Program-made: the position numbers and the translations under genes
Notes under the pieces: generated by a model
The model's input: only the letters and a program-made list of their open reading frames with translations
What the model was told of the DNA's origin: nothing
The model's database searches: none
Part shown: positions 4,561 through 50,081 of the stretch, in pieces
How the letters are laid out: every line of letters begins with the position of its first letter
Position numbering within the stretch: position 1 is the stretch's first letter
Assembly: GCA_007132905.1 (NCBI GenBank)
Contig: SLNR01000079.1
Span: forward strand, 1-50,799
Length of the DNA: 50,799 nt
Source: Candidatus Sumerlaeota bacterium
Lineage (GTDB): Bacteria; Bacillota; SLNR01
Reading direction: 5' to 3'

Positions 4561-5088
4561 ATGAGCGAGGCTAGACTTTCACAAGAAGAAATTGAAGCGC
4601 TGGTTCGTCAGGCGAGCGAGAAAGAACCCAGCCAAGAAGCTGGTGTAGAAAAGACCGCCGCCGAAAAAGAAAAACCCGCTGAAGAGAAGTCTGCAAAAGA
4701 ACACGGTCCACCATCTCATCAAACACCCTCGGGGGAAGACGAAGAAACCAGGCAGATTGAGTTTGAGGAGATCACAGCGCATGAAGTCACCGGTCCGCTG
4801 AGCGACATAGAAAACATGCATCACATCAAGTTGAATCTGGAAATTGTTTTGGGAGAAGCCAATCTTACTGTCAAAGAACTGTTGGGAATGAAAAAAGATT
4901 CCGTCATCACCATAAACAAAATGGCCGGCGAGAATGCTCTTTTGTATGCCAACGGCAAACTTCTGTCGGAAGGAGAAATTGTGATCCTCAATGATCGGTT
5001 CTCTTTTCGCATTGGGTCCTTGGAAGATAAAGAGCAGGTAGTAAGACCTGACGCGGCGTCGGAAAAGGAGGATAAAGATCCCTCATGA
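4561..5088 (+). CDS. fliN: FliN-like switch protein with FliM/FliY-type N-terminal motif
   Basis: A C-ring protein of 175 residues. The C-terminal part (about 85-160) is a SpoA/FliN domain: LNLEIVLGEANLTVKELLGM, then the NALLYANGKLLSEGEIVILN strands. The first 15 residues carry RLSQEEIEALVRQ, like the LSQDEIDALL peptide that binds phosphorylated CheY in FliM and FliY. Between them is an acidic, Lys/Glu-rich linker of about 60 residues that looks disordered. There is no CheC-like domain. It sits between fliL and fliO, where Bacillus has fliM-fliY-cheY. A GGGGGG run lies 4-9 bases before the ATG. Two more FliN-domain proteins occur near 19-21 kb. Confidence 0.85.
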   Translation: MSEARLSQEEIEALVRQASEKEPSQEAGVEKTAAEKEKPAEEKSAKEHGPPSHQTPSGEDEETRQIEFEEITAHEVTGPLSDIENMHHIKLNLEIVLGEANLTVKELLGMKKDSVITINKMAGENALLYANGKLLSEGEIVILNDRFSFRIGSLEDKEQVVRPDAASEKEDKDPS

Positions 5089-12417: not shown

Positions 12418-13107
12418 ATGAAAAAAAATCCATTTAGGATCAACCAAACCATAGAGATTGCTGAGACTGACGCAAACGATTTTCACAAAGTCTTAATACA
12501 AGATATGAACAGCCGCCTTCTTTATGTAACGATCCCCGTATCCAAAGGCCAAGCACACATTGTTCCTAAGGGCGATGAAATGAAGGGACGCGTGATCGAC
12601 CAAGGCGCTGTCTTTGAATTTCTGACCGTCTCCCATGGAACCAAAACAGGAGCGGACATCCCTCTTCTTATGATAGCCGTTCCTCAAAAATATATTCGAA
12701 ATCAGCGCAGAGACCATTTCCGCCAAGAGGTGGTGATGCCTATTGAATATCAAATAGAAAAGAGCAAACGAGGCGGGACGAAACAAGAAGAAGAGGCAAA
12801 AGAGCATCAGGGCCCCTGGCATAAAGGCAGGATTCTTGATATCAGCGGGGGAGGCATTCGCCTGGCAGCGGATGAACCGATTCCTAACGGAGCCGTGCTG
12901 CGCCTAAGAATCGATCTGCGCGAACAACGAGAGGGTAGACCAAAGTTTTTCTTTTTATCAGGTCGGATTGTGCGAAAGAACCTTTCGCCGCCCTCCCAAG
13001 AACCCAACATGTATAGTCTGGCTTTCGAGGAGATAAGCCAAACGGTGCAGGACAGAATTGTGAATTTTGTTTTCTCAGTGCAGGGAAAAACATTAGGCAG
13101 GAGGTGA
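12418..13107 (+). CDS. PilZ-domain flagellar brake protein (YpfA/YcgR type)
   Basis: A c-di-GMP receptor expected to slow the flagellar motor. The 229-residue protein has an N-terminal YcgR-like domain (about 1-95) and a PilZ domain (about 98-220). The c-di-GMP motifs are intact: R-x3-R in QRRDHFR and D-x-S-x2-G in DISGGGIRLAAD. A Lys/Glu-rich insertion of about 15 residues interrupts the PilZ domain after the first strand. It follows flhG by 13 bases and precedes sigD by 4, so it is co-transcribed with motility genes. Bacillus YpfA and enterobacterial YcgR are the functional models; the role here is inferred. Confidence 0.88.
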   Translation: MKKNPFRINQTIEIAETDANDFHKVLIQDMNSRLLYVTIPVSKGQAHIVPKGDEMKGRVIDQGAVFEFLTVSHGTKTGADIPLLMIAVPQKYIRNQRRDHFRQEVVMPIEYQIEKSKRGGTKQEEEAKEHQGPWHKGRILDISGGGIRLAADEPIPNGAVLRLRIDLREQREGRPKFFFLSGRIVRKNLSPPSQEPNMYSLAFEEISQTVQDRIVNFVFSVQGKTLGRR

Positions 13108-16417: not shown

Positions 16418-18190
16418 CTATCGAAACGTAATTTGGCGGAGCCGGTTTTCCTTTTTGTCATAGGCGAGACGGACTTGCGTACAAGGTTCCTGGAAGCGGT
16501 GAACATGCGAGCCAATCTTCACATGGGTGTTCTCATAAACGTGACCTAAAGTGACCTGCTGATCATACGGAACCGCAATGTGGGTGGATACCGACGCTTC
16601 TGAACCAACTTCGTGAATGCTCACCGAGTTGTCGGCAGTGATTTGTCCCCCGCGGACGATTCCTTTGACATGGATGGACCCATGTGCCCTCAAGCGGGTA
16701 TGAAAACTGCCTTGTCCATCGACGATAATATCACCACTGGCCTCAATATCTGAATTTAAACAGTAAGGAACTTGAACCTGACTCCTGTCTTGTTCCGTGT
16801 CGTGAAAATGATGAGCCAATTTTTCCAGGCTTTCCAAAAGAGAAATGGCTGATTCGGGATTTTGATAAGCGACCCGACTGAATGCGGTCAGCTTTTCTTG
16901 CAGAGCAGAAATGGTACCGGTCATCTCCTTGGCAAGAACAACTCCTTTGGGGGGATGCAGGTTTTTTTCTAAGCGATGCAGCTGCTTGGGAAAATCCGGA
17001 TACTTATTTTCAATCAGGCGGTCAAGGACATACCCGAAGCGAGGTGTTTTTTTCTGTCTTTTTTCTTTGATCTGACGGTAGCCTTTAAGCAGTGATACTA
17101 ATACCCGGGTAAACTCTTGGAGGTAGGGTAGAGTTTGAAAATGATAAGACTGCTGAGCTCCGGCTAGAATAACGGTATTGATCACATTATCTTGGATGTA
17201 GACCGAGCCTTCGGTGACAATATGAGCATCCGTGACATCTTTGGTGATCGTAATGTCTTGCCCGGCCGTGATCTCCATGTTTTCGCTAACACTTCCCATC
17301 ACTTTAATGCCGCCGTCAAAATGGAGATTGCCGGTTTTCATATTGATATCCTGGTGGATGGAATAAGTCGGCAAGACAGAGGCCTTGACGGTCCGATTGG
17401 ACTTCTCTAGATGTGGATGCCCGAGTACTGCAGAATACAGTGTAAGCTCGTCACTGCTTAGATAAGTGTTTTTACCGGCTTTGAGCGAAAAATCGTTCAC
17501 TTTGTCCGCCGGCAGCTTCTTTGCTTTCACATTCAAACCCTCGATACCGAACGAGGCTGGTTTTTTTGAGAGGAGAAGTTCGTCCTTTGCAACGCAAGGA
17601 ATGCTGCCCTTTTCGCGATAGTTGATTTGAAGTTCGTCTGAGGTTTTATCATGCAGGTTATTCTCCTGCTTAAAATGGACCGTCAGTAAAGCATCGCGAC
17701 CGGGTTGAGGAGGGGTCCCGGTCGCGATATCTACGGGGCGGCCGTCCATTCGTTCATAGGCTTTTTGGACAGCCTCTTGATCGATCCCGTGGGCAAGGCC
17801 TGATGTTTTTAAGAGTGCATCAAGTTCTTCCCGGGTACATATGGAATCAAATACGAACTGTTTTGTCACCTTGGGTTCAAAGATTTCGCCATCACCGGTT
17901 TGATCTTCAAGTTGGTAGCAAATAGACCGTTTTTTTTGAAGAGTTAACGAGGCACTCATCTGATCAGAGGCAATCTGTATGTCGGCGGTGCCCTCTTGGA
18001 TCATTTTTTCTTCTGATTCCCAAGTGATCTTATCGTCTGGACCGACTGGCTGTGCTTCTTTTAATAAGGTGTCGTTGACGAAAAGACGTATACCCTCAAC
18101 CGGAACCAAGACAGGATGTTTGCCGCTGTCCGATGCCTGTATCGAGAAGATTCCTTCTTTGATTGTGATGGATATTTGATTTTTTTCCAT
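16418..18190 (-). CDS. fapA: FapA family protein (DUF342), flagellar assembly protein A
   Basis: The 590-residue protein belongs to the FapA/DUF342 family: a long N-terminal alpha/beta region followed by a right-handed beta-helix of short repeats. The repeats are GGIKVMGSVSENMEITAGQD, ITITKDVTDAHIVTEGSVYI and GDIIVDGQGSFHTRLRAHGS, IHVKGIVRGGQITADNSVSI. Between the helix parts is a coiled region of about 120 residues. The ATG at 18190 is chosen because AAAGGTGG lies 8 bases upstream; the open frame runs 38 codons further without such a site. It is the only clear gene on the minus strand, convergent with flgG and divergent from fliM. A weak hairpin (ATAGC/GCTAT) lies at its stop. Known family members affect polar flagella or cell-surface processes; the role here is inferred. 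Confidence 0.9.
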   Translation of the reverse strand: MEKNQISITIKEGIFSIQASDSGKHPVLVPVEGIRLFVNDTLLKEAQPVGPDDKITWESEEKMIQEGTADIQIASDQMSASLTLQKKRSICYQLEDQTGDGEIFEPKVTKQFVFDSICTREELDALLKTSGLAHGIDQEAVQKAYERMDGRPVDIATGTPPQPGRDALLTVHFKQENNLHDKTSDELQINYREKGSIPCVAKDELLLSKKPASFGIEGLNVKAKKLPADKVNDFSLKAGKNTYLSSDELTLYSAVLGHPHLEKSNRTVKASVLPTYSIHQDINMKTGNLHFDGGIKVMGSVSENMEITAGQDITITKDVTDAHIVTEGSVYIQDNVINTVILAGAQQSYHFQTLPYLQEFTRVLVSLLKGYRQIKEKRQKKTPRFGYVLDRLIENKYPDFPKQLHRLEKNLHPPKGVVLAKEMTGTISALQEKLTAFSRVAYQNPESAISLLESLEKLAHHFHDTEQDRSQVQVPYCLNSDIEASGDIIVDGQGSFHTRLRAHGSIHVKGIVRGGQITADNSVSIHEVGSEASVSTHIAVPYDQQVTLGHVYENTHVKIGSHVHRFQEPCTQVRLAYDKKENRLRQITFR

Positions 18191-18220
18191 GAAGATCGCC
18201 ACCTTTATTTGAGAATGTCT

Positions 18221-18247
18221 TAAGTTTTGGCTTGTTTTTACCGAAAA
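18221..18247 (+). promoter_or_regulatory. SigD-like promoter upstream of fliM
   Basis: TAAG at 18221-18224, a 15-base spacer, then ACCGAAAA at 18240-18247. The sigma-28 consensus in Bacillus is TAAA, 14-16 bases, GCCGATAA, so this has 3 of 4 and 6 of 8 matches with ideal spacing. The site lies 34 bases before the fliM ATG in the divergent fapA/fliM spacer and would drive the switch/chemotaxis block separately from the upstream operon. No clear vegetative promoter was seen in this spacer. Confidence 0.5.
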
Positions 18248-18280
18248 AGACCATAAGGAAGAACAGCTAGGGGGATGGAA

Positions 18281-19285
18281 ATGGGCAAAGATGTTTTGTC
18301 TCAATCAGAAATCGATTCTATCATCACTGCGCTAGGTTCAGGAGATATTTCCACACAAGAAGAAAGCGCAGAACAAGTAAGTGAAGATGAAGTGACTATA
18401 TATGATTTTCGGCGTCCGAATAAGTTTTCTAAAGACCAAATGAGAACATTAAAAAATATTCATGAAAATTTTGCGAGAATGCTGACGAATTTCTTAACTG
18501 CCTATTTGCGAGTGCCGGTGGCTGTAAAACTCGAATCGTCAAGCCAGGTTAGTTATGAAGAATTTATGAATTCCCTTCCTCTCCCCACCTTGGTAACCGT
18601 GTTTTCTTTTTCTGAGCTAGGAGGAAGAGCTTTTATGGAAATGAATCCGTATTTCTCTTTTCCTATTATTGGCATTCTTTTCGGCGGCGAGGGCAAATTG
18701 ATCAACAAGATGAGAGAGCTTACGGAAATAGAACTGAGTGTGATGCGAAGAATTAATGAAAAAATTCTTGATAATTTGCGTTATACTTGGGAAGATTTTG
18801 CCGATATAGATCCTGTGATTGAAAATTTAGATACTAATCCCCAATTTAGCCAGCTTATTGCTTCCAATGAAGCGGTAGTGCTGCTCAGTTTTTCCACACA
18901 AGTAGAAGGAAACGAAGGATTTATTAATCTTTGTCTTCCCTATATAACGCTTGAGCCTATGTTGGGACAGCTGTCTGTGCAAAACTGGCATACACGCCAG
19001 GGTAAAAAAGATCAAGATGAGGAGCAGAGTTTGGAAAAACTAAAAAAGCGCTTAAAAGGCGCCGAGGTGGAACTGACAGCCTTGATAGGAAAGACGGACA
19101 TAACCGTGGCTGACTTTCTTCAGTTTGAAGAGGGCGACATCATTATGCTGGATAAATCCGTGGAGGATCCGATTGAGCTTTGCCTGGAAGGACGGCCGAA
19201 GTTTGGCATGAACCTGGGAAAAGTGGGAAAAAAAGTGGCGGGCGTTATCGTGGACCGGGCCGAGGATGAGGAGGATGCCGTGTGA
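18281..19285 (+). CDS. fliM: Flagellar motor switch protein FliM
   Basis: FliM is the C-ring protein that binds phosphorylated CheY and sets rotation direction. The 334-residue protein begins with the CheY-binding peptide VLSQSEIDSIITALGSGD, then the CheC-like middle domain (PNKFSKDQMRTLKNIHENFA; ETRVPVA-type strand YLRVPVAVKLESSSQVSYEE; GGEG loop FGGEGKLIN), and a C-terminal SpoA domain (VELTALIGKTDITVADFLQF). The ATG at 18281 is preferred over 18275 because AGGGGG sits 6 bases before it. It ends overlapping the next FliN gene by 4 bases. Confidence 0.96.
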   Translation: MGKDVLSQSEIDSIITALGSGDISTQEESAEQVSEDEVTIYDFRRPNKFSKDQMRTLKNIHENFARMLTNFLTAYLRVPVAVKLESSSQVSYEEFMNSLPLPTLVTVFSFSELGGRAFMEMNPYFSFPIIGILFGGEGKLINKMRELTEIELSVMRRINEKILDNLRYTWEDFADIDPVIENLDTNPQFSQLIASNEAVVLLSFSTQVEGNEGFINLCLPYITLEPMLGQLSVQNWHTRQGKKDQDEEQSLEKLKKRLKGAEVELTALIGKTDITVADFLQFEEGDIIMLDKSVEDPIELCLEGRPKFGMNLGKVGKKVAGVIVDRAEDEEDAV

Positions 19286-19656
19286 GCAAAGACATATCAC
19301 CGCAAGAATGGGACGAACTGGTCAATGGACATTCGACAAATAAAGATTCCAGTGGGGCAGATTCAGATCGCCAAGAAAGCGAGATCGATAAGGAAAAGCT
19401 AAACCTTATTTTAGATGTTCCGATTCAATGCCAGGTGGTGGTCGGCCGAACCGAAAAACAACTACAGGAACTTTTGCACATGAGGCCGGGAAGAATTTTG
19501 GAAACAGAACACATGGCTTCGCAGCACATTGAACTGCGCATAAACAACCGGCTGGTCGCTCTGGGCGAAGTAGTGGTGGTGGGAGAATTTTACGGACTGA
19601 GAATTAAACAGATAGCAAAGCCGGTTGATATTATCGAAAAATTGAAAGAAGAGTAG
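19282..19656 (+). CDS. fliN: Second short FliN-type switch protein
   Basis: A 124-residue C-ring protein consisting of a short acidic N-terminal tail and a SpoA/FliN domain (about residues 38-115): LNLILDVPIQCQVVVGRTEK, LQELLHMRPGRI, INNRLVALGEVVVVGEFYGL. The first residues, ISPQEWDELVNG, resemble the FliM/FliY CheY-binding peptide with Trp in place of Ile. The start GTG lies in the fliM stop and has GAGGAGG upstream. It differs clearly from the FliN-like protein at 4561, so the genome carries at least two short FliN proteins plus the FliY-like one that follows. Confidence 0.9.
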   Translation: MSKDISPQEWDELVNGHSTNKDSSGADSDRQESEIDKEKLNLILDVPIQCQVVVGRTEKQLQELLHMRPGRILETEHMASQHIELRINNRLVALGEVVVVGEFYGLRIKQIAKPVDIIEKLKEE

Positions 19657-19675
19657 ATGAAAGGTGGTTTGCCAG

Positions 19676-21259
19676 GTGAGGCAGCACGATGATCAAGGCA
19701 GTCCTTTACATGATTTCAGTGATATAGAAAAAGATACCCTCAAAGAAGTAGGGAATATTTCGTTGGGTTCTTCGGCGACGATCCTCTCACAGCTTATCAA
19801 CCGTCCGGTACGGATTACGACTCCCAGCCTTTCCTACCGCACTGTCGAGGAAATTAAAAATGGTTTCCCCACCCCGTGTGTCATGGTAGGGGTGGAATAC
19901 ACAGAGGGTTTGGCGGGCAAAAATCTTTTGATCATCGATACGCAAGACGCGGCGATCATCGGACAGCTTATGATGATGGAAGATCCGGATCCAAAAGTGG
20001 AACTATCAGAGATTCATTTGAGCGCAGTGAGCGAATCAATGAATCAAATGATGGGGGCGGCGGCGACTTCCATGTCCGATATGTTTGACCGGAAAATCAA
20101 CATCTCGTTTCCTCAAACCCAATACCAAAAACCGGGCGAGCTGCTGGAAAGCCAAAGTCTATTGGAAGGAGAGACAGGTTTTATCCAAGTTTCTTTTAGG
20201 CTGGAGGTTCCTGATTTGATTGATAGCGAGCTTTTGCAGCTTATGCCGGTTTCTTTTGCCCGTTTGGCCGTTGACTATTTGCTGGACAATTACAGACAAA
20301 ACAATGAAGAGAAAACGAAAGCCTCTCATGAGCGTGGTTGGGGGAAAATAGAAAAAGCAAGGTGCCGCGATATGATCGTCATGTTGATGGACTCAGCAGC
20401 AAAGACTTTATCCGATATGACAAGCAAAGAAATGGAATATGAAATTGACTCTACCGTTTTAATCGAAGGACATACGATCCATGAAGAGCAAAACGCAAAT
20501 GGGGTGATAGTGCAAGCCGAATTAAAAGATGGATTGGTGGGCGAGAAAACGATTTTTCTCGACGAGAAAGAAGCAGCCCTGATCGGTCAGTTGATGATGG
20601 GTGAAGAGCCTACTGGGGAAAGTGAATTAAACGAGATGTATTTGAGTGCGCTAAATGAAGCGTTCAATATGATGTTCGGGGCCTTTGCAACCGAATTATC
20701 CAAGCAGGTCGGCCGTGAGGTGTCTTTGGGTGCCCCCCGACTGCATCATATGACCGAAAACGATCGCTGGCCTGATGGTTTGGAGTGGGACAAAGACAGT
20801 TGTTATGTAAAAACAGCCTGCTCTTTTGCTTTACCCGGCGGCTTTGTTGCCAAGATGATGCATTTGTTACCATTGTTCCTTGTTAAAGAGGTAGCCGAAG
20901 TTTTCACAAGTGAAGAGGAGGCGCTTTACCCGGAGGCTCAAGGTAATGAAGAAAAAGAGCCGCAAGGACCTGCTTTTTCCGATGCAGCGTTAGCTGGTGG
21001 GCTGTCTGTAGAGCCGCCCGAAGACGAGGAACTAAGCTTGGTAAAGCACATCAAATTAGAAGTCTCAGGAATAGCCGGCTGTGCGAAGATGCCTTTGGCC
21101 AAGGTGCTTCGTCTAGGGACAGGATCGGTGGTGGAGCTAGATAAAGAGGTAGGGGAAGATGTGGATGTGTTAGTAAACGGAAAACAAGTGGCCAAGGCAG
21201 AGATTGTGGCCGTAGGCCAACAGTACGGGCTTCGAGTAACAAAAATATATCGTTCTTAA
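19676..21259 (+). CDS. fliY: FliY-type switch phosphatase with two CheC-like modules
   Basis: FliY is a C-ring protein that dephosphorylates CheY-P. This one is 527 residues, against about 380 in Bacillus. It contains a first CheC-like module (about 15-205), a second (about 215-415) and a C-terminal SpoA/FliN domain (about 445-527, GIAGCAKMPLAKVLRLGTGS). The phosphatase pattern [DS]-x3-E-x2-N-x22-P is intact three times: D20/E24/N27/P50 and the copy with SAVSESMN in module 1, and the copy with SALNEAFN in module 2. The first site of module 2 has lost Glu and Asn. No EIDALL-type CheY-binding peptide is seen at its N-terminus. The GTG at 19676 is preferred, with AAAGGTGG 8 bases upstream. Confidence 0.88.
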   Translation: MRQHDDQGSPLHDFSDIEKDTLKEVGNISLGSSATILSQLINRPVRITTPSLSYRTVEEIKNGFPTPCVMVGVEYTEGLAGKNLLIIDTQDAAIIGQLMMMEDPDPKVELSEIHLSAVSESMNQMMGAAATSMSDMFDRKINISFPQTQYQKPGELLESQSLLEGETGFIQVSFRLEVPDLIDSELLQLMPVSFARLAVDYLLDNYRQNNEEKTKASHERGWGKIEKARCRDMIVMLMDSAAKTLSDMTSKEMEYEIDSTVLIEGHTIHEEQNANGVIVQAELKDGLVGEKTIFLDEKEAALIGQLMMGEEPTGESELNEMYLSALNEAFNMMFGAFATELSKQVGREVSLGAPRLHHMTENDRWPDGLEWDKDSCYVKTACSFALPGGFVAKMMHLLPLFLVKEVAEVFTSEEEALYPEAQGNEEKEPQGPAFSDAALAGGLSVEPPEDEELSLVKHIKLEVSGIAGCAKMPLAKVLRLGTGSVVELDKEVGEDVDVLVNGKQVAKAEIVAVGQQYGLRVTKIYRS

Positions 21260-23853: not shown

Positions 23854-24216
23854 ATGTCAGGAATTTTGATAACCGATGATACAGCTTTTATGCGCATGAC
23901 ACTGAAAAATATTCTTTCAAAAAACGGCTTTGACATAGTGGCAGAAGCCCAAGACGGGGTGGAGGCTGTCAGCAAATACAAAGAAGAAAAGCCAGATCTT
24001 GTTACCATGGACATCACCATGCCGAACATGGATGGGATCGAAGCCATCAAGGAGATAATGGAATTCGATGGAGGGGCAAAAATCATTGTCTGCAGCGCCA
24101 TGGGACAAAAGTCGCTGGTGATCGAAGCTCTCGGAGCCGGGGCAAAAGATTTTATCGTGAAACCTTTTGAACCTGATCGAATCTTGGAGGCTGTCCAAAA
24201 GGCTTTGGAGGAGTGA
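23854..24216 (+). CDS. cheY: Chemotaxis response regulator CheY
   Basis: Single receiver domain of 120 residues that carries the signal from CheA to the motor switch. The acidic pocket is D8-D9 (ILITDDTAFMR), the phosphorylated Asp is D53 (VTMDITMPNMDG), then the switch Ser in CSAMGQKSLV and Lys in FIVKPFEPDRI. GAGGAGGG precedes the ATG. It sits between cheA and cheC, so kinase, messenger and phosphatase are neighbours. Confidence 0.97.
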   Translation: MSGILITDDTAFMRMTLKNILSKNGFDIVAEAQDGVEAVSKYKEEKPDLVTMDITMPNMDGIEAIKEIMEFDGGAKIIVCSAMGQKSLVIEALGAGAKDFIVKPFEPDRILEAVQKALEE

Positions 24217-24220
24217 TGAT

Positions 24221-24829
24221 GTGGATAAAGCAATCAGTCAACGCCAAGAAGATGTATTAACAGAAATCGGCAATATCGGCATGGGAAATGCAGCTTCTTC
24301 CTTGTCGGAGTTGTTGAAGGAACAGGTGAGGATTAGCGTTCCAAGTGTGGATATTGTTTCTTTGGGAGATTTACCCTACCACATGGGAGGGGCAGCCGAT
24401 CATGTGGTAGGCATTTATGTTCCGGTCCATGGGGATGTTTACATGCATATGATCTTCATTCTCCCGTTGAAAAGCGCTTCTGTTATCGTATTAAATATAA
24501 CCGATGGATTGGCACAAGAAATGGATGAACTCGGGCAATCGGCCATCGCAGAAGTAGGGAACATAGTGGTAGCAGGGTATGTTAATGCTTTTGCTCATCT
24601 GACGGATTTGCGATTGCTGCTGCAGCCACCTGTTTTGGCCATTGATATAACAGAAGCCATACTGGGTTCTGTATTAGCGGGAATACAAATTCCTGAGAAT
24701 TTTGTCATTAACATAAAAGCTTCGTTTGAAACCGGCAGTTCTAAAGCAGAAGGGTATTTGTGTATGATTCCGGCCGAAGATTCCTTTCCGTCCGTTTATG
24801 AAGCTTTGCTCGAGGGATTGGGTGATTAA
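24221..24829 (+). CDS. cheC: CheY-P phosphatase CheC
   Basis: CheC removes phosphate from CheY-P and binds CheD. The 202-residue protein has both catalytic motifs intact: D-x3-E-x2-N-x22-P in EDVLTEIGNIGMGN, and S-x3-E-x2-N-x22-P in QSAIAEVGNIVVAG. It has no C-terminal FliN domain. The GTG at 24221 is the start, 7 bases after GGAGGAG; the open frame extends upstream into cheY but without a suitable site. The stop overlaps the cheD start by one base (TAATG). Confidence 0.95.
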   Translation: MDKAISQRQEDVLTEIGNIGMGNAASSLSELLKEQVRISVPSVDIVSLGDLPYHMGGAADHVVGIYVPVHGDVYMHMIFILPLKSASVIVLNITDGLAQEMDELGQSAIAEVGNIVVAGYVNAFAHLTDLRLLLQPPVLAIDITEAILGSVLAGIQIPENFVINIKASFETGSSKAEGYLCMIPAEDSFPSVYEALLEGLGD

Positions 24830-27247: not shown

Positions 27248-28471
27248 ATGGATATTTTTGTTGCCCGCCAACCCATATTTGACCAATATCAAAAAGTAAT
27301 CGGCTATGAGATTTTGCATAGGTCAGGACCGGACAATCATTTTATCAAAACGAGCGAATACGGTGTCGATGAAACCGAAGAAGTGATTATGAATAGTTTT
27401 CTTGTGATCGGGTTGCAAACATTAACAAGGGGAAAAAGAGCCTTTATTAATTTCCCCATGCAGTCTCTCATCAAACAAGCTCCTACCCTTTTACCTAATA
27501 ATACAGTCGTCATAGAAGTCCTCAGTGATTATTTAGTGGATGGAGAAGTCATTGAGGCTTTAGAACATTTAAAAGGAAAGGGGTATATTTTGGCATTGGA
27601 CGATTTTGTTTTCCGGCCGGATATGATTCCCATCCTTGATCTGATGGATATTGTGAAGGTTTGCTTTTTGAGTCACAACAGCAAAGAAAGAAAAGATATT
27701 GCTAAGCTTATGCGCTACAAGGATGCCCGCTTGCTAGCTGAAAAAATAGAGACTATGGAAGATTTTGAGGAAGCGAAAGAGCTCGGATATACCTACTTTC
27801 AAGGTCATTTCTTTGCTCGACCTTTGCTTTTGAAAGGAAAAGATATCGAAGCTTTTAATCCCACACTTTTAGAACTGCTTAAGGAAGTGAATCAAAAAGA
27901 AATACATTATGAAAAACTAGAATCATTGATCAAAAGGGATGTTTCTCTTTCCTATAAACTGCTTCGATACATAAATTCACTTTCGTTTGGCTTGATGTCG
28001 GAGGTTCACTCCATTCGCCATGCCATTTCCTATTTAGGGCAAAACGGGCTGAAAAAATGGTTGTCCATCATGTCGTTGCGTAGGTTTGGGAAGGGGAAAG
28101 CCAATGAATTGTTTGTGTCAGCCGTTTGCAGGGCCAGCTTTTGTGAAGCGATGGCTACGCAGGTGAATTTAGATAACAAACGGGGAGACCTCTTTTTGGT
28201 CGGACTGTTTTCTCATCTAGATGCTTTTTTAGACCAACCTATGAACAAGATTATTGAGCAGCTTCCTGTATCGAAAGAAGTGAAAGATGCCTTGGCTGGC
28301 GAAAGCGGAGTCATGAAAGATGTTTATGACCTAGTGGTGCATTATGAGAAAGGAAACTGGGAACTGTTTTCTAAACAGGCGAGGAAACTGCAGTTAAAAG
28401 AGGATAAAGTGGCCAAAGAATATTTTCACTGCCTTAGAGAGGCTGATGTTATATTTGGCATCATGGAATAA
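27248..28471 (+). CDS. EAL-HDOD (YuxH-type) signalling protein with degenerate EAL
   Basis: The 407-residue protein has an N-terminal EAL-like domain (about 1-200) and a C-terminal HDOD domain (about 205-400). The EAL domain is degenerate: the signature position reads IGYEILHRSG, and later sites read VVIEVLSDY, LALDDFVF and YFQGHFFARP, so several metal-binding acidic residues of active phosphodiesterases are missing. HDOD features are VSLSYKLLRYINSLSF and IRHAISYLGQNGLKKW. Such proteins are thought to act as signalling scaffolds, not enzymes. A SigD-like promoter lies upstream. Confidence 0.85.
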   Translation: MDIFVARQPIFDQYQKVIGYEILHRSGPDNHFIKTSEYGVDETEEVIMNSFLVIGLQTLTRGKRAFINFPMQSLIKQAPTLLPNNTVVIEVLSDYLVDGEVIEALEHLKGKGYILALDDFVFRPDMIPILDLMDIVKVCFLSHNSKERKDIAKLMRYKDARLLAEKIETMEDFEEAKELGYTYFQGHFFARPLLLKGKDIEAFNPTLLELLKEVNQKEIHYEKLESLIKRDVSLSYKLLRYINSLSFGLMSEVHSIRHAISYLGQNGLKKWLSIMSLRRFGKGKANELFVSAVCRASFCEAMATQVNLDNKRGDLFLVGLFSHLDAFLDQPMNKIIEQLPVSKEVKDALAGESGVMKDVYDLVVHYEKGNWELFSKQARKLQLKEDKVAKEYFHCLREADVIFGIME

Positions 28472-30788: not shown

Positions 30789-30948
30789 ATTTTGTCTTTT
30801 TTGCCAAAGATAACGATCAAGAAGAACCAGCTTTGTCTTTTTTGAAAGAATAGGGGCATGAAAATATTCGCACTATTTCGAAAAAAAAATGTTAAAAAGT
30901 TTGCGAATAGGCAGGAATATCTACCCGGCAAGCGAAATACATACCTTC

Positions 30949-30974
30949 AAGTGGGGGAAAGTGGGGAAAAGTGG
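30949..30974 (+). promoter_or_regulatory. MraZ operator (three direct repeats)
   Basis: AAGTGG occurs at 30949, 30959 and 30969, an exact 10-base period, with a further GTGGGA at 30992. MraZ is known to bind GTGG/TGGG-containing direct repeats of about one helical turn spacing upstream of its own operon, so autoregulation is expected. The array lies 32-57 bases before the mraZ start. Confidence 0.75.
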
Positions 30975-31005
30975 TACGATTTTAACTACAGGTGGGATGG
31001 CATCC

Positions 31006-31437
31006 ATGTTTATGGGAGAATACAAACACACCCTTGATTCAAAAAACAGAATGATTATCCCAGCCAAGCTTCGAGATTCTCTGGGGGAACGGTTCATTAT
31101 GACCAAGGGTCTAGATGGATGTTTATTCCTATATCCAATGGATGAGTGGAAGATTCTTGAGGAGAAACTAAAATCCCTGCCTTTCACCAAATCAGATGCC
31201 CGAGCTTTTGTGAGATTCTTTTTTTCGGGAGCAACCGAATGTGAACTTGACCGGCAAGGCCGGATTCTCTTACCCAATGGGCTAAAAGATTTTGGAAAAA
31301 TTGAAAAAGAAGTGGTTATTATTGGTGTTTCGACCAGAGTGGAAATATGGAGCGAGGAAGTTTGGAATGGTTACAGTGAAGAAGCAGAAACGGCTTATGA
31401 GGAGATCGCCGAAAACATGGTTGATTTGGGACTTTGA
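31006..31437 (+). CDS. mraZ: Transcriptional regulator MraZ
   Basis: MraZ is an AbrB-fold DNA-binding protein that regulates the division and cell wall operon. With the ATG at 31006 the protein has 143 residues, the family norm, and begins [20 protein letters not shown]. Two DXXXR repeats are seen: D in LDSKNR of the first half and [10 protein letters not shown] in the second. The frame is open upstream for 39 codons but those residues are not family-like. The triple operator lies just upstream. Confidence 0.95.
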
Positions 31438-49938: not shown

Positions 49939-49998
49939 ATAGGACAAAGGTTTTTGTTTATGGCAGTGTTAGTGAACAAGGCGAAAAATGATTTTCTC

Positions 49999-50081
49999 TC
50001 AAGGGCAGACCTGTCGAAAGGCAGTGCCGCAAAACTACAGGGGCTAAGGTACCACAGGTATTAGGCCAGCCAGCTGCCGCC
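49999..50081 (+). ncRNA. c-di-GMP-I (GEMM) riboswitch candidate, diverged
   Basis: The layout matches GEMM-I: GGGCAGACC, then a hairpin CTGTC/GGCAG with a GAAA tetraloop (50011-50024), then GCCGCAAAACTACAGGGG and CTAAGG, a second hairpin built on TACC/GGTA and CTAA/TTAG, and CAGCTGCC closing with GGCAG. The usual core is GCAAACC, GACGCAAAGC and CTAAGG; this copy has GCAGACC and GCCGCAAAAC, so two core positions differ. The GGGC that precedes the first hairpin is kept, which would favour c-di-GMP over cGAMP. No gene directly follows, so its target is uncertain. Confidence 0.65.

Follow-up and report, generated by a model that had tools for sequence, protein, structure and literature searches.

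CheC, CheX and FliY act through a long helix whose Glu-Asn pair enters the active site of CheY and positions the attacking water; in CheX, one such helix per module suffices. FliY as represented by the family model NF005995, by Bacillus subtilis and by Thermotoga maritima (4hyn) consists of a CheC module with two half-sites followed by a SpoA domain, and its gene adjoins fliM. A second model, NF005275 (PRK06782, 516 aa), which we take to be a family of the Bacillus cereus group, was matched by one-module FliYs over positions of about 187-516 and by two-module FliYs over about 4-516, indicating that it contains two CheC modules ahead of SpoA. Tandem CheC domains in one protein are also known from Halobacterium CheC3, which, unlike the protein studied here, is archaeal, is not described as a rotor part and has no SpoA domain mentioned (PMC3579733). 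FliN and FliY are mutually exclusive in most bacteria, with exceptions (PMC6946799).

The DNA analyzed here, referred to as the window, is a stretch of 50,799 nucleotides from a Candidatus Sumerlaeota bacterium (contig SLNR01000079.1), in which fliM, fliN, fliY and cheC, with all their parts described below, lie on the forward strand. The reading frame of fliY is open from a GTG at 19664, giving 531 aa (P0001, whose residue numbers are used throughout). The GTG at 19676, giving 527 aa, is preferred as the start, being preceded by AAAGGTGG at 19660-19667, and the coordinates 19676-21259 of the first-pass annotation are correct. The encoded protein showed, from the N to the C terminus, CheC module 1, CheC module 2, a linker and the FliN (SpoA) domain, and the Pfam search returned CheC in three stretches, CheX and FliMN_C. 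Compared with 71 one-module FliYs from named genomes (366-454 aa, median 398), it had rightly been described as about 150 residues longer. A frameshift artefact was rejected, as was the reading of the protein as a misread CheC fusion.

The full chain passed the cut-off of NF005995 (383.5 bits against 218) and matched 4hyn with an E-value of 4.9e-31. Module 1 with both Glu-Asn half-sites and a C-terminal SpoA domain (PF01052, 67.5 bits; 21029-21256), both features of FliY, were present. Inspection by eye ahead of the SpoA domain revealed no ribosome-binding site paired with an internal start, and the AGGAGG near 20916 is not followed by a start codon. Compared with an ordinary FliY, the window protein has an extra CheC module before SpoA, lacks the N-terminal EIDALL peptide and is preceded by a separate fliN. 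The layout of two CheC modules and a SpoA domain on a single chain is shared with NF005275. Residues 21-528 aligned to positions 10-515 of this model, and the score of 287.6 bits was under the cut-off of 681, so that by score the window protein is not a member. The order of the modules also differs, since the module resembling an ordinary FliY is nearest to FliN in NF005275 and comes first in the window protein.

CheC module 1 (19709-20308) scored 232 bits and CheC module 2 (20330-20959) 80.5 bits in the HMM searches. Module 2 by itself was over the Pfam cut-offs for both CheC and CheX, and the best of its scores was that for NF005995 (81 bits, against 36 for CheC and 25 for CheX). Among solved structures it matched T. 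maritima FliY (4hyn) with an E-value of 3.6e-15, against 0.13 for CheC. A closer kinship of module 2 to free CheC or CheX than to FliY was rejected on these scores. The AlphaFold (AF2) model of module 2 alone, built from 45 sequences, reached a pLDDT of 88 and a pTM of 0.82, and superposed on 4hyn with a TM-score of 0.84-0.88. The full-chain model (8 sequences) had a pLDDT of 67, with the linker (20960-21028) and the SpoA domain poorly modeled, and showed helices and strands in the same order in modules 1 and 2. Alignments A2 and A4 were used for folding; A3, in which one- and two-module FliYs were mixed, set module 2 against gaps and was left out. Both the separate search with module 2 and the full-chain prediction proposed earlier have therefore been run, and module 2 matches the CheC family and is predicted to fold as CheC.

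The strict motif [DS]x3Ex2Nx22P occurred three times in FliY, at residues 24, 120 and 328. Chance occurrence was rejected, as shuffled FliY gave 0.008 strict motifs per sequence. Two of the motifs form half-sites 1A (D24-x3-E28-x2-N31-x22-P54; 19733-19825) and 1B (S120-x3-E124-x2-N127-x22-P150; 20021-20113) of module 1, and the third forms half-site 2B (S328-x3-E332-x2-N335-x22-P358; 20645-20737) of module 2. At the position of half-site 2A (20357-20449), A232, D236, V239 and D262 replace D, E, N and P; these residues were read from alignment A1, as this half-site was partly clipped in the motif-by-module parsing. The motif pattern first described, with two sites in module 1, one in module 2 and loss of Glu (to Asp) and Asn (to Val) in the other half of module 2, was thus borne out. 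The cheC gene (24167-24829) encodes two intact half-sites in profile matches and the motif scan. Across the whole draft genome (completeness 94%, contamination 6%), no further CheC, CheX or FliY above cut-off was found, and the count of five motifs in two proteins therefore stands.

These results are best explained, with a probability of roughly 0.55, by an enlarged FliY that works in the rotor as a phosphatase of CheY-P and combines a full module with a one-site module of likely weak activity. Because relatives have two or three modules, such a protein would be a variant of the known rotor phosphatase and no new kind of machine. The CheC module of FliY would have been duplicated in tandem, and module 1, with both Glu-Asn half-sites, would be the main enzyme. 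Module 2, with its CheC fold and half-site 2B, most likely binds CheY-P and hydrolyzes it weakly, and it would make the protein bulkier in the stretch that separates module 1 from SpoA. As CheX works with one helix per module, module 2 with its single site is not necessarily inactive. The Glu-Asn pair is by itself no proof that module 2 is catalytic, and the module evolves fast.

The reverse case, in which module 2 is a decaying duplicate without an important role, agrees with its being the longest branch in the module tree, with its odd composition, its identity of 25% to module 1 and the loss of one half-site. The intact reading frame and the full and confidently predicted CheC fold argue against decay and, together with the purifying selection on analogous damaged modules elsewhere, make it improbable. 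That selection was estimated in relatives from two informative protein pairs, the CheC modules of a third pair (L082/L092) being saturated. By the NG86 method, dN/dS was 0.23 for the damaged module 2 of L094/L096 and 0.27 for the damaged module 1 of L066/L080, against 0.10-0.14 for the intact modules in the same protein pairs. Damaged modules in sister genomes are accordingly under relaxed, non-neutral, purifying selection, and module 2 of the window is most likely under weaker selection than a full module.

It is also conceivable, and rather unlikely, that module 2 serves as a spacer or scaffold within the C-ring, comparable to the CheC-like domain in the middle of FliM, which is inactive, and that its half-site is incidental. 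FliM middle domains were among the fold matches to module 2, and two relatives with the module order of the window (G463/L096 and G464/L094) have lost both Asn residues of module 2, which is still under purifying selection. Set against a pure scaffold, the catalytic helix that survives in module 2 shows stronger conservation than the remainder (12/22 consensus positions versus 26/95 elsewhere, Fisher p 0.016; 7 of those 26 belong to the first helix and were counted by eye, as the alignment had clipped it), and most multi-module FliYs have at least two complete modules. The helix conservation and these complete modules (in 20 of 28 proteins) suggest that retained CheY-P chemistry is favored at least as much as geometry. 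Docking of another partner on module 2, such as CheD or FlhG, is very improbable. The cheD gene lies in the same gene cluster, binding of CheC to CheD is known, the solved complex 2f9z was among the fold matches to module 2, and FlhG is reported to interact with FliY in B. subtilis (PMC12327844), but a specific interface signature was not found in module 2.

A phylum survey with NF005275 detected FliY in 282 of 399 genomes, and the whole two-module model was spanned in at least six genomes other than that of the window, which is the sole member of its class among the genomes compared. Many further multi-module FliYs came from searching one related class. In total, at least 28 distinct ones were parsed, that is, at least 27 from related Bacillota besides the window protein (loci L034-L039, L080-L096, L099, L103, L104 and L110), with carriers including Syntrophomonadaceae MAGs, UBA7523 and CROMO_A_104. 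Like the window, these uncultured Bacillota have two or three CheC modules with SpoA, an upstream fliN and a FliY without the docking peptide. The FliY of G474 (L093) shares 42% identity with the window protein over the chain. Three modules were found in 3 of the 28 (G259/L036, G443/L080 and G456/L099), and L066 (6268-8682, reverse strand), L080 (787-3210) and L099 (1489-3945, reverse strand) encode FliYs in which three CheC modules and SpoA add up to 804-818 aa. The layout is rare but not unique: two- and three-module FliYs exist and NF005275 covers a two-CheC FliY. A literature search, with most subscription papers outside its scope, found no paper describing a multi-module FliY, and a scan of the genome contigs with a single protein gave no match.

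Every one of the 28 multi-module FliYs retains a module in which both Glu-Asn pairs are intact, and two or more complete modules were present in 20, among which G259 and G443 add a damaged third. Both half-sites had Glu-Asn in 123 of 124 one-module FliYs. Most multi-module relatives retain all half-sites, whereas the window protein has lost 2A. The site of damage differs by lineage, being in the first half in module 2 of the window and in G448, in the second half of the N-terminal module in members of family f53, which have up to three modules, and in both halves of module 2 in G463 and G464, the two relatives in which, as in the window, the intact module comes first and the damaged one is beside SpoA.

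In a tree of 89 rows, module 1 of the window joined both modules of G474 (support 100/93; 57% identity) and then G307. The multi-module label required about six changes on the tree, and in family f11 and in G474 the modules within each pair grouped with one another, so that tandem duplication (or gene conversion) has occurred repeatedly. Module 2 of the window was too divergent to place. Three groupings of it were tried and none was rejected, with p-AU values of 0.42 for a lineage-specific duplication and 0.55 for joining the damaged module of another lineage. The third, a swapped module order in which module 2 of the window resembles module 1 of G307 (p-AU 0.31), was neither supported nor rejected and was dropped. 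Duplication followed by loss of one half-site, as put forward in the first-pass annotation, fits the data, since module 2, which is 25% identical to module 1 (E-value 2e-23), descends from a CheC module of FliY.

The gene fliM (18275-19285; TIGR01397, 307 bits) encodes LSQSEIDSI near the N terminus. Between it and fliY lies a separate fliN of 124 aa (19282-19656; PF01052, 68 bits), starting with MSKDISPQEWDELVNG, and the N-terminal ISPQEWDELVNG of its product (19294-19329) resembles the CheY-docking peptide LSQEEIDALLNG by sequence and by comparison with relatives, although the match is weak (QEWDELV). No EIDALL-type CheY-docking peptide was found in the first 50 residues of the window FliY, and none within any of the 28 multi-module FliYs; the peptide is a frequent trait of FliYs and no strict hallmark, and as it is absent across these proteins, its lack was not used to exclude the window protein from FliY. 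A fliN is upstream in 27 of the 28, with the 28th at a locus edge, and this small fliN usually bears the docking peptide. Among one-module FliYs, all six with an upstream fliN lack the peptide, whereas it was present in 107 of the 118 without an upstream fliN and not detected in 11, where in some cases the start may be wrongly called or the N terminus extended. The split between docking and hydrolysis is also seen without module doubling. The association of fliN with peptide loss is strong, yet largely reflects shared ancestry, as most cases are from one class plus the window, and its Fisher value should not be read as counting independent events. The two- and three-module relatives, the separate upstream fliN and its coupling to peptide loss in FliY are points absent from the first-pass annotation.

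In the enlarged rotor phosphatase favored above, the SpoA domain would anchor FliY, probably assembled with FliN, in the C-ring, and peptides on FliM and the separate FliN would capture CheY-P close to the rotor, docking being left to these because FliY has lost its own. FliN and FliY stand side by side here, with docking peptide and enzyme on separate proteins. Because CheY-P is cleared by FliY right at the motor, the rate at which a motor forgets a signal should be set by how many active sites each rotor subunit carries. The series of rotors that nature offers, with one to three CheC modules of which some are disabled at identified residues, would put this to the test and reveal how the C-ring accommodates an additional domain. 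This series, with docking apparently moved to FliN, is the more interesting point. We tentatively suggest, at well below even odds, that the rotor phosphatase of these Bacillota is tuned by the number of CheC modules (one to three per FliY, through repeated tandem duplication) in connection with this split between FliN and FliY, and that the window captures a stage with one full and one one-site module.

Several other features were observed. A further FliN-like protein of 175 aa, with SpoA and an N-terminal LSQEEIEALV, is encoded at 4561-5088 of the window, just before fliO. The window therefore encodes FliM, FliY and two small FliN-like proteins, and docking-like peptides are present on three of these four. 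In several other genomes, similar small FliN genes are located at a distance of about 13-17 kb from fliY. GMMPGAP repeats make up the extended linker in the one-module FliY of G049 (L022/L076, 515 aa). The flagellar and chemotaxis cluster of the window includes genes for a YcgR-like PilZ protein (12418-13107) and an EAL and HDOD protein (27248-28471). The flagellar assembly protein FapA (16418-18304, reverse strand) lies between two flagellar gene blocks, and its listed reading frame overlaps the start of fliM, so that translation probably begins at a more internal position. The chemotaxis genes are followed at a short distance by mraZ (30889-31437 onward), and a c-di-GMP-I riboswitch was detected at 49994-50081 (61 bits).
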